Of a DNA stretch of 64,000 nt, positions 7,417-33,982 are shown one piece after another. The DNA comes from Sideroxydans sp. (GTDB lineage Bacteria; Pseudomonadota; Gammaproteobacteria; Burkholderiales; Gallionellaceae): positions 1 through 64,000 of the forward strand of contig JAQTUV010000005.1 in assembly GCA_028707175.1 (NCBI GenBank), given 5' to 3'. The notes beneath the pieces are model-generated. The model saw nothing but the letters and a program-made list of their open reading frames with translations, made no database searches and was not told the origin of the DNA. Position 1 is the stretch's first letter; each line of letters starts with the position of its first letter. The translations under genes were made by a program, and so were the position numbers.

Positions 7417-7444
7417 TTTTACTTCCTTTTAATAAATCAACTTC

Positions 7445-7989
7445 GTCGGGGGTAGCCCGACAGCTAGTCACTTTTTCTTGCTTCGCCAAGAAAAAGTAAC
7501 CAAAAAGAAAGCGACCCTGCTGTAGCGCCCTTCGGGTTCCTTCGGTCAGTCAATAAAATTGGGCGGCTGCGCAACTCGCACGATCCGCTACGCGGCCACG
7601 TGCTCAAACAGTGCTCGCCTTCTCCCCAATTTTATCGCCCGCCCTCAGCGCTACAGAAGGGAATGAAAATCAAAAGCAAAACCCCAAACCCAGAACCCGC
7701 GAGGCGGGCAACGCCCGCCTCGCCCCAACAAAAAACTCGTGCGCGCAGCGGACACAAAACCGCTTCACCGCCTTTGAACTTCCTTCCCCTGAGCGCCGCC
7801 GAGTAGCACAGGCTGGTCAGGGGATTTCGGCGAGGACTGTCTGAGCGCGTAGCGCGAGTTCCGCAGCCGCCTGACCAGTCGAGCAACGCAGGGAACTACG
7901 AAGCAGCGGCGCACTGGGGTCGACTTTTCTTTGGTTCCTTTCTTTTGGCGAAGCAAAAGAAAGGAACTTGCTGTCGGGCTACCCCCGAC
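7445..7989. repeat. Structured inverted-repeat element, copy A
   Basis: This 545-base element is bounded by inverted repeats of about 74 bases (7445-7518 and 7916-7989) that begin GTCGGGGGTAGCCCGACAGC. Each end holds two hairpins. Inside each half there is a long stem: 7553-7563 with 7625-7635 on the left, and 7813-7821 with 7870-7878 on the right. An inner GC hairpin sits within each. The middle has a perfect 11-base palindrome, GCGAGGCGGGC and its complement (7699-7723). No credible gene lies inside; the short frames seen there are of the kind often annotated as spurious proteins in proteobacterial genomes. A related, larger copy lies at 32827-33920. Confidence 0.85.
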
Positions 7990-30287: not shown

Positions 30288-30425
30288 TTGTGTTTCCCAG
30301 ATTACGTTCCAAGCGTCCCCGTTGGAACATTGAAAAAATCAGGAATAGGGAGAGAGAGTGATGTGACGACGGCTACTCAATGAAGAGCATCCATGTCGCC
30401 TCCCGCAACATTTCCTGAACCTTCT

Positions 30426-30577
30426 CCTAGGCCGGTATCCGGGCTCACAAGTCTTGATTCGTCACCTTCCCATGCGTGCGCACAGTGGCATATCGACGAA
30501 CCCACACTTGCTTACCGTTGCGGGGGCAGCACAGGCATTGGAGTTAATACTTCCTCACCTGTTTCCCGTTTAACTTC
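30426..30577 (-). promoter_or_regulatory. Cobalamin riboswitch
   Basis: The minus strand shows the adenosylcobalamin aptamer: ACGGGAAACAGGTG at the 5' stem, CTGCCCCCGCAACGGTA in the core, the B12 box GCCACTG (+ strand 30484-30490), and GCCCGGATACCGGCCT at the 3' end. It lies about 140 bases ahead of btuB. A hairpin at 30306-30328 next to the btuB ribosome-binding site could belong to the expression platform. Binding of B12 is expected to lower btuB-btuM-cobO expression. Confidence 0.92.
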
Positions 30578-30706
30578 ATAGCTCTCGCTATGCAGCACCT
30601 TGAAGCGGGACGGATTGTAACAGACGGCACTTCTCCTTCCTAAATCACATGTACAACAATGCGTTATCAATTGACTAGATAGGGTTTTCAAAACTATAGT
30701 TCGCCC

Positions 30707-31229: not shown

Positions 31230-31410
31230 TTGTCCCCTGCGGTGTTCGTCAGATTCATAATTCTTTGAACCAATGAGCTATTGCTTAGGTTGCGCCCCAT
31301 TTAAATCGCTGTTGTGAGTGTCCCTAGCGGATGCACCTGATGCGACCGGGAACCGACCCTCTTGAACCCAGGTTCAAGATATTGAGTCAACGGCACAGGC
31401 GGGGGACTTT
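31230..31410 (+). ncRNA. ssrS: 6S RNA
   Basis: The roughly 180-base segment after zapA has the closing stem GTCCCC (31232-31237) with GGGGAC (31401-31406), the conserved 5' motif CCCCTGCGGTGTTCG, and a central bubble flanked by GC-rich arms. This is the form and location known for 6S RNA, which sequesters sigma70 RNA polymerase in stationary phase. Ends are approximate. A hairpin terminator follows directly. Confidence 0.85.
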
Positions 31411-32722: not shown

Positions 32723-32746
32723 TGACCTTGAGAGTCGCCCCACATC

Positions 32747-32799
32747 CAGTTCGTCCTGAGTGCCGTGCGTAGCACGGTGTATCGAAGGATGGGCGAAGC
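32747..32799. repeat. Small dispersed palindrome, left edge of repeat island
   Basis: TTCGTCCTGAG ... GGATGGGCGAA brackets an inner hairpin CCGTGC/GCACGG. I recall this type of unit (TTCGTCCTGAG with a GAAGG end) as dispersed in many bacterial genomes. It is probably untranslated and lies just after the TSUP gene. Confidence 0.5.
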
Positions 32800-32826
32800 C
32801 CGCTGGTTTGTAAATTAATAACAAAT

Positions 32827-33920
32827 ACCGTCGGGGGTAGCCCGACAGCTAGTCACTTTTTCTTGCTTCGCCAAAGAAAAAGTAACCAAAAAGAAGGCGC
32901 CCCCGGTGCCCCGCCCCTTCGGGGTTCCCTGCGTTGCTCGACTGGTCAGGCGGCTGCGGAACTCGCGCTACGCGCTCAGACAGTCCTCGCCGAAATCCCC
33001 TGACCAGCCTGCGCTACTCGGCGGCGTACAGGGGAAGGCAAAGCGAAAATCAAAACCCATGGTGGGCAACTAGTTGTCCACCATGCATCGCGACGTGACT
33101 TATCTCTTTGGCAACTCCCACCTCGAAGATTTGCTAATACTACTTCCACCAACAGCCCAGCATATCAAAGCCACACCCCAACCCGGCATTGCCAACCACA
33201 AGTACAGACCATTATCTGAGTTTCCACTGATTAACACTATCAACGAAACAATTACGATTGGTATAACCACAAGCGCGTTTCCAACTGCAATATAACCATG
33301 TCCCCGCCGCCAATCCTTTTCTCGCCCCTTAATTGGAAGCGGAGATAAATCCAATGCTTCCCAAAACCAATACAAACTTCCAACAATGAAGGTCAATGCT
33401 AAGAATATTGCGTAACTTTCCGAAAGTTCAAAGTCAAACATCGATAGGAGTATTTTTCGAATAATTGCTACAAGAGGAGCAAGTAATACCAAAAATGCCA
33501 CTATCAAGGCAGTAATGAATATATTGAAATCATGTGATTGAAATTTCTGCTTCTTCTTTTGAGTATCCAATTGTTACCACTCTTTCTTTGAACCTATTGG
33601 TTAATTCAGAAGTTCCAATGTACCGAACTTGTATCACTTTGACTACGGTGGGCAACTTGTTGTCCACCGTACAATTTTGATTTTCGCTTTTTCATCCCCT
33701 GTGCGCCGCCGAGTAGCGCAGACTGGCCAGGGAATTCTGACGAATATGTTTGAGCACGTGACCGCGTAGCGGGTCGTGCGAGTTTATGAGGAGGCCTGAC
33801 CAGTCGAGCAACGCAGGGAACCCTCGAAGTGGGCGGCAAACCGGGGTCGCCTTTTCTTTGGTTACTTTCTTTTTGGCGAAGCAAAAGAAAGTAACTTGCT
33901 GTCGGGCAACCCCCGACGGT
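32827..33920. repeat. Structured inverted-repeat element, copy B, with cargo gene
   Basis: About 1.09 kb bounded by inverted repeats of roughly 75 bases (32830-32904 and 33843-33917) nearly identical to those of copy A, extended by ACC/GGT at the very ends. Each half holds the same hairpins and long stem (32942-32950 with 32999-33007 on the left). Between the halves are two further palindromes, 33058-33085 and 33645-33670, each containing GGTGGGCAAC and GTTGTCCACC. Between these lies an AT-rich insert with a single gene (33100-33570). The nested palindromes suggest stepwise growth or capture. No transposase is present. Confidence 0.85.
33100..33570 (-). CDS. Uncharacterised membrane protein, cargo of the repeat element
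   Basis: The 156-residue product has about four hydrophobic helices: near residues 15-37, 45-66, 92-112 and 120-142. The segments between are charged (KGREKDWRRGHGY) and the tail is polar. I do not recognise a family. The start is a TTG preceded by GAGTGG at a suitable distance; no ATG gives a better start. The gene looks AT-rich compared with neighbours and is enclosed by palindromes, so horizontal origin is likely. Function unknown. Confidence 0.6.
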   Translation of the reverse strand: MDTQKKKQKFQSHDFNIFITALIVAFLVLLAPLVAIIRKILLSMFDFELSESYAIFLALTFIVGSLYWFWEALDLSPLPIKGREKDWRRGHGYIAVGNALVVIPIVIVSLIVLISGNSDNGLYLWLAMPGWGVALICWAVGGSSISKSSRWELPKR

Positions 33921-33938: not shown

Positions 33939-33969
33939 CGTTCATGCTTCGACAAGCTCAGCACGAACG
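33939..33969. repeat. Small dispersed palindrome, right edge of repeat island
   Basis: CGTTCATGC ... GCACGAACG with TTCGACAAGCTCA inside. I recall units like this as dispersed across many unrelated bacterial genomes. It separates copy B of the element from livF. Confidence 0.5.
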
Positions 33970-33982
33970 GGATAGTAAAAAC

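Follow-up and report, generated by a model that had tools for sequence, protein, structure and literature searches.

In the 64,000 nucleotides analysed here (the window; the first 64,000 positions of a Sideroxydans contig) we found two members of a repeat family of iron-oxidising and related bacteria, in which two inverted, structured arms of about 220 bp enclose cargo, usually a single gene, or else a short centre. The helices of the arms covary, the elements fall into two length classes, their cargo is diverse, the content between the arms differs between genomes at orthologous sites, and near-identical arms occur at different sites. We favour, with somewhat more confidence than doubt, the reading that these elements are inherited slots whose single-gene cassettes are swapped via recombination in the shared arms. 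According to the slot reading, the window would contain one empty slot (copy A) and one loaded slot (copy B). The pattern looks like an undescribed way of gene exchange, and no description of this arrangement of arms and cargo was found among the papers listed from open PMC text.

The genome to which the window belongs (2.89 Mb, 19 contigs) gave six arm matches, which make up three elements. Copy A (7444-7989) lies at the aroC site and is the “empty” short form of the family with a short centre, while copy B lies at the livF site and is “loaded”, having an ORF between its arms. Copy C is found on another contig (C9), has a shortened left arm and encloses an ORF of 241 aa, which was missed by the cargo count given below, since 225 bases were trimmed per side and the left arm is short. 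The initial annotation had described a single inverted-repeat element in two copies, overlooking this third copy and the ORFs in B and C. The inverted arms were recovered independently over 73 nt at 84% in A and over 93 nt at 85% in B. The features of A and B are as follows.

7444..7680, plus strand: left arm of copy A
7445..7461, plus strand: hairpin H1 of the left arm of A, GTCGGG-GGTAG-CCCGAC
7467..7500, plus strand: hairpin H2 of the left arm of A
7553..7635, plus strand: long stem-loop of the left arm of A, ATAAAATTGGG with CCCAATTTTAT
7699..7723, plus strand: central hairpin frequent in short elements, GCGAGGCGGGC..GCCCGCCTCGC
7739..7753, plus strand: second central hairpin of copy A, GTGCGCGCAGCGGAC
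7782..7989, minus strand: right arm of copy A, inverted
7813..7878, plus strand: long stem-loop of the right arm of A, CTGGTCAGG/CCTGACCAG
7934..7967, plus strand: hairpin H2 of the right arm of A, GTTCC/GGAAC
7973..7989, plus strand: terminal hairpin H1 of the right arm of A, outward-facing and terminator-like
32829..33050, plus strand: left arm of copy B
33059..33084, plus strand: hairpin H4 at the left cargo edge of B, read from the sequence (the terminator scan gave only a shorter hairpin, 33055-33067)
33100..33570, minus strand: cargo ORF of B, 156 aa, TTG start, no Pfam family over the cut-off
33644..33671, plus strand: hairpin H4 at the right cargo edge of B, terminator-like (terminator scan)
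33680..33918, minus strand: right arm of copy B, inverted
33898..33920, plus strand: H1 of the right arm of B with extra pairs, outward-facing and terminator-like (terminator scan)

The ends, the hairpins and the swapped long stem in the left half of A could be read directly in the sequence where they had first been placed. The terminal hairpin GTCGGG/CCCGAC is present at both ends of A (7445-7461 and 7973-7989) and of B (32830-32846 and 33901-33917). For the second hairpin, the paired variants described earlier hold for the right halves, with GTTCC/GGAAC in A and GTTAC/GTAAC in B, but both left halves read GTCAC/GTAAC and carry one C.A mismatch. The long stem is the same in three halves, as claimed: CTGGTCAGG/CCTGACCAG in the right half of A (7813-7821 with 7870-7878) and in the left half of B, and CTGGCCAGG/CCTGACCAG with a G.T pair, on the minus strand only, in the right half of B. 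The left half of A differs, pairing ATAAAATTGGG (7553-7563) with CCCAATTTTAT (7625-7635).

Further elements were collected by likeness to the arm of B, by a 30-base end pattern (among the matches listed) and by a profile made from these, a search that under-samples distant arm types. The arm profile found 113 inverted pairs among the collected loci, corresponding to 90 distinct elements. Half of these are short, counting L110 with its 109 bp, and 45 are long (1.0-3.4 kb; at most 44 of them distinct, since L012 is the same element as L083, cut at the locus end); none measures between 760 and 1000 bp. Many short elements at different sites have a two-hairpin centre, GAGGCGGGC..GCCCGCCTC plus GTGCGC..GCGCAC, and some have other centres. 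Exceptions to the single-gene content are L049 with two ORFs, L047, which is decayed in appearance, and L070, where an IS110-type transposase is accompanied by other ORFs. This IS110-family gene (L070:5270-6292) lies between the arms of an element of 3.35 kb.

Covariation was analysed over 65 distinct arms, namely 5 from the own genome plus 60 out of 77 kept below 88% identity; the 17 omitted before counting are mostly of other families. The structure tested comprises four helices with 31 pairs: the terminal hairpins H1 and H2, an outer stem and the long stem. Of its cells, 91.2% are paired compared to 82.4% (sd 0.4) in shuffled alignments, double-change cells number 210 compared to 72.9 (sd 8.7), and the covariation score is 0.257 compared to 0.115 (sd 0.005). 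None of 500 shuffles reached any of the five observed values, although this test is inflated by the relatedness of the arms. When the partner strand was slid by 1-3 columns pairing dropped to 40-57%, which argues against relatedness as the sole cause. Both sides change in 21 of the 31 pairs, and in H1, for instance, 48 arms have T-A as the second pair and 13 have C-G. The proposal that the stems change in pairs was thus upheld on a much larger set of arms. One H2 pair (C.A) is unpaired in 25 of the 65 arms, and the alignment is poorest in the long stem, with 77.6% of cells paired. An extra helix of 3 pairs joins the H1 loop with the bases that follow and overlaps, competes with or crosses H1. 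It occurs as TAGC/GCTA (31 arms), TTGC/GCAA (18), TGGC/GCCA (2) and rarer types, and 98.4% of its cells are paired; in three of five measures, the covariation score included, 0 of 500 shuffles scored as high, and its counts of double-change pairs and of pair types were matched by 149 and 93 of 500 shuffles, respectively. From the same alignment RNAalifold predicted 19 pairs, of which 13 show double changes; the long stem was not among them. Taken singly, the left half of A folds as RNA with z = -3.7, and the left half of B gave a weaker result when folded as DNA (z = -1.5; 13 of 200 shuffles equally good). Rfam listed no family over the arms at the gathering threshold, and below it copy A had two matches only (E 0.67 and 0.73). 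The covariation in the two terminal hairpins, the long stem and the 3-pair helix supports selection on the folding of the arms, as RNA or as single-stranded DNA. This part of the initial annotation stands. Its view of the element was incomplete: the family forms slots with or without cassettes at sites that are orthologous between genomes, A being empty and B loaded.

Clustering of the flanking DNA revealed 8 sites with at least two elements joined by both flanks (30 of the 90 elements); these sites are linkage clusters, within which some pairs lack a match on both flanks. Content differs between genomes at 5 of the 8 sites, and 3 of those 5 hold more than one cargo gene. At one site three genomes have three unrelated genes at nearly equal position, coding for proteins of 453 aa (L061), 184 aa (L124) and 302 aa (L048). 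Between L061 and L124 the flank match on either side stops only 4-14 bp short of the element, and L048 agrees with them to 12-19 bp, one side having only 25-30 bp aligned near the end. In the pair L049/L146 the flank match reaches the element (0 bp) on one side and ends 2 and 46 bp away, respectively, on the other. At the richest site (L010, L083, L164, L018 and L075) flank homology ends 1-155 bp from the element, the distances differ mostly by tens of bases, and L010 and L075 have one flank without a real alignment nearby. Separate insertions into one interval are possible at this site, because the flank stops are offset in this way.

The remaining 3 of the 8 sites are short throughout, among them the aroC site of copy A, where all 6 elements joined by both flanks are short. 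An aroC match was obtained in 29 of 34 genomes of the genus. Near it we observed a paired short element in 16 genomes, a single arm in 5 (2 at contig ends), the H1 hairpin alone in 3 (L208, L212 and L217, in the last of which the hairpin is followed by other sequence) and nothing in 5; some of the 5 arm-less loci are short contig pieces. The uniformly short form of these 6 elements, the covariation of the arms, the outward terminator-like hairpins and the finding of short forms alone (405-711 bp) in four genomes of two other families would all suit a structured RNA or a bidirectional terminator passed on vertically, in which cargo represents incidental central insertions. We consider this improbable, given that half of the 90 elements are long, that the cargo ORFs are conserved and that near-identical arms occur at different sites. 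The aroC-side flank is common to the window, L059, L101, L104 and L184, with no match listed for the other flank; from such comparisons, elements seem to lie at synteny breakpoints.

The livF site of B was compared in 14 loci of the genus. Arms are present in the own genome, G037 and G072; G075 has an arm in pieces, and 10 of the 14 loci gave no arm match. In G050 both genes flanking copy B are kept with about 40 bp between them and no element. Pairs with the same cargo at different sites (L042/L053 and L016/L019) match over the element and not over the adjoining flanks, and L010 and L026 have the cargo and one flank in common, synteny being broken at the other end of the element. The element-free sites, these same-cargo copies and the flank stops displaced by tens of bp at the richest site all speak for the main rival, a serious one even if we hold it to be rather unlikely: a transposon that is non-autonomous, ends in hairpins, depends on an unlinked transposase acting in trans, carries passenger genes and prefers certain REP-rich intergenic intervals. 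The ends also bear CGTC- and GTAG-containing hairpins, tags that mark REPs as well according to an excerpt of PMC3733652. Against transposition stand the paired arms retained at aroC in 16 of 29 genomes and the change of content at nearly equal position in L048, L061 and L124. No target duplication was seen, although the element-free G050 site is too diverged to judge by.

The search for a mover covered Y1 transposases (PF01797). None is present in the own genome (99.94% complete), and none was found in G054, G057, G060 and G084, each with 5-12 arm matches, while 20 of the 34 genomes of the genus contain one. Present-day mobilization by Y1/RAYT was rejected, as Y1 is not co-distributed with the arms, which within this one transposase family argues against transposition as well. 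A plasmid or phage origin was likewise discarded, the left arm of B having no match in PLSDB or INPHARED at 1e-5; in IMG/VR viral contigs no exact match to the 30-base end pattern was detected. The same arm matched 75 of 100 sampled genomes of the family at 1e-5, the own genome included, and the matches listed come among others from Sideroxydans, Gallionella, Sideroxyarcus, Methylotenera, Novimethylophilus, a Sulfuricellaceae MAG and Glaciimonas. Across the class, 14 of 274 genomes matched at 1e-10, the own genome and 13 others at 72-84% identity. Only short pairs were found in two further families, of 405-711 bp in that of G218 (two genomes) and of 540-601 bp in that of G132 (pairs in one of two genomes).

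Arm likeness bears on exchange in both directions. Near-identical arms (96.5-100%) form 41 pairs, two of which are L012 and L083, one element; several lie at orthologous sites, others at different sites and in different species. The arms of L033 and L096, presumably from one genome, are 100% identical over 170 nt with different content and site. Content and site also differ between the left arms of window B and L010 (97.2%) and between the right arms of L093 and L146 (97.2%). Matched flanks average 81-83% identity. In long elements the inner parts of the two own arms are more alike (86.7%) than those of shuffled partners (82.4%; 0 of 2000 shuffles). In short elements the two own arms show no excess likeness, which was counted against slot exchange. 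Same-site arms are only a little more alike than random arms, which was also counted against it: over the outer 75 nt the values are 87.8-88.6% compared to 86.0%, and in the inner arm 84% compared to 79% for long/long and short/short pairs, long/short pairs reaching 75.5%.

If the slot reading is correct, two inverted arms between chromosomal genes, often inherited in place, would frame a centre that consists of short hairpins, as in A, or of a cargo gene, often with terminator-like hairpins at its edges, as in B. Incoming DNA with the same arms would recombine with the slot and replace the gene between them; the recurrence of near-identical arms, both among the slots of one genome and between species, would make this possible. 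Outward terminator-like hairpins may insulate the neighboring genes. We infer homologous recombination as the process, as well as the insulating role and any benefit of the cargo. More tentatively, and as a possibility that we would not call probable, the family might form a recombinase-free exchange platform of interchangeable slots, with arms serving as both recombination arms and insulators and a cassette pool reaching across the species of the family.

Cargo proteins of at least 100 aa number 47 and fall into 42 clusters. Among 40 scanned, 15 match Pfam over the cut-off, one being the IS110 transposase, and 25 have no match. The families include RES, T5orf172 (which we take to be of GIY-YIG type), RiboL-PSP HEPN, HNH, Mrr, AAA_15, AAA_16, KilA-N and BRCT, and further DUF2441, DUF4116, DUF4145, DUF5677 and DUF6731. 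The L051 cargo is the antiphage protein GapS1 over the NCBIfam cut-off. In four same-cargo pairs dN/dS is 0.04-0.32, values that fit real genes under selection. Scanned singly with PADLOC at 1e-5, 9 of 30 cargo proteins (30 of the 39 in alignment A1) had a match, and so had 4 of 10 other ORFs of the window; the control being as high, an enrichment of defence genes is not established and was dropped. All 39 together gave 168 families at 0.01.

Both A and B end in outward-facing hairpins of terminator-like form, and such hairpins also mark the cargo edges of B. The region of B has 6, one of them in the flank, compared to 1.8 in shuffles, and the region of A 3 compared to 1.0. A 21-bp motif, CAATTCGACTCCGGTACATTG, was found with at most 5 mismatches in 22 of the 45 long and in none of the 45 short elements. 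It shares the strand of the main cargo ORF in 22/22 cases and mostly lies near the start of that ORF: in 15 the motif stops 27-59 bp ahead of the listed start, in 3 it is at or inside it, and in the remainder the distance is 5-18 bp (3) or 144 bp (1). In the genus, 69 places in 24 of 34 genomes carry it with at most 3 mismatches (reversed control 0), many beside the same context of arm end and H4, others near other genes or Y1 transposases. Its use as a sigma-70 promoter was rejected, the spacing being unfit by eye. A form of the motif ending in CCTTT also adjoins some Y1 genes. AATTCGACTCCGGTACCTTT, close to the cassette motif, adjoins Y1 transposase genes in L315 and L316 and is found in either orientation near other genes, L324, L325 and L326 being among its places.

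Most cargo edges inspected are hairpins of similar form, the 21-bp motif is shared near one cargo edge, and at the aroC site of two relatives the H1 hairpin stands by itself. These features would fit integron-like site-specific recombination, with a recombinase acting on folded single strands of H4 or H1. We give this little credence, as the sequence of H4 is variable and hairpins are missing from a few edges (L010 left, L036 left). Lone H1-like hairpins are moreover scarce (13 of 34 genomes, 0-3 each, some of them other sequences); the lone hairpin as a common target was rejected on this ground, and the same rarity leads us to infer that it is a collapse product.

Integrons draw on a large pool of unrelated single-ORF cassettes with hairpin sites, sometimes including defence genes. 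Unrelated single-ORF cassettes with hairpins at the edges are found here as well, but with one gene per slot and with inverted bounding sites, whereas those of integrons are direct. In the minimal mobile elements (MME) of Neisseria, whole-gene cassettes differ by strain at one site that is bounded by unique conserved genes, and they are thought to be exchanged by homologous recombination without mobility genes of their own. The elements described here resemble them in having different gene cassettes at one orthologous site (5 of 8 sites; L048, L061 and L124 at nearly equal position), and differ in their bounds, which are structured repeats in inverted orientation, similar to each other and dispersed over several sites. 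MITEs and ERIC-like long palindromic repeats are short inverted-repeat elements without genes, unlike the covarying multi-helix arms and replaceable gene cargo found here. Should the slot reading hold, the cargo between arms could be read from genomes as a list of exchangeable single genes, including many without a known domain and some of nuclease, toxin-like or antiphage type. There would also be a testable route by which genes are exchanged, perhaps with no need of an integrase or a transposase, and an explanation for a non-coding repeat that is strongly conserved throughout a family.

REPs have a unit of 20-40 bp. They are described in an excerpt of PMC3733652 as intergenic palindromes, often in inverted pairs and some inside longer palindromes. 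The elements resemble REPs and REP dimers (TnpA_REP/RAYT, GTAG-/CGTC-tagged) in being intergenic palindromes often in inverted pairs, and differ from REP/REPIN with RAYT in arms of about 220 bp, the presence of cargo and the lack of a Y1 gene in the own genome; that excerpt mentions no cargo genes for REPs. Copies B and C are flanked by inverted REP-like repeats, GTTCGTCCTGAG...TCGAAGGATG (32735-32802 and 33940-33970 in the window; flanks of L007), and several other elements have matching REPs on either side, as if nested. The window also contains, by Rfam, a cobalamin riboswitch (30413-30617, minus strand) and a 6S RNA (31231-31409, plus strand).
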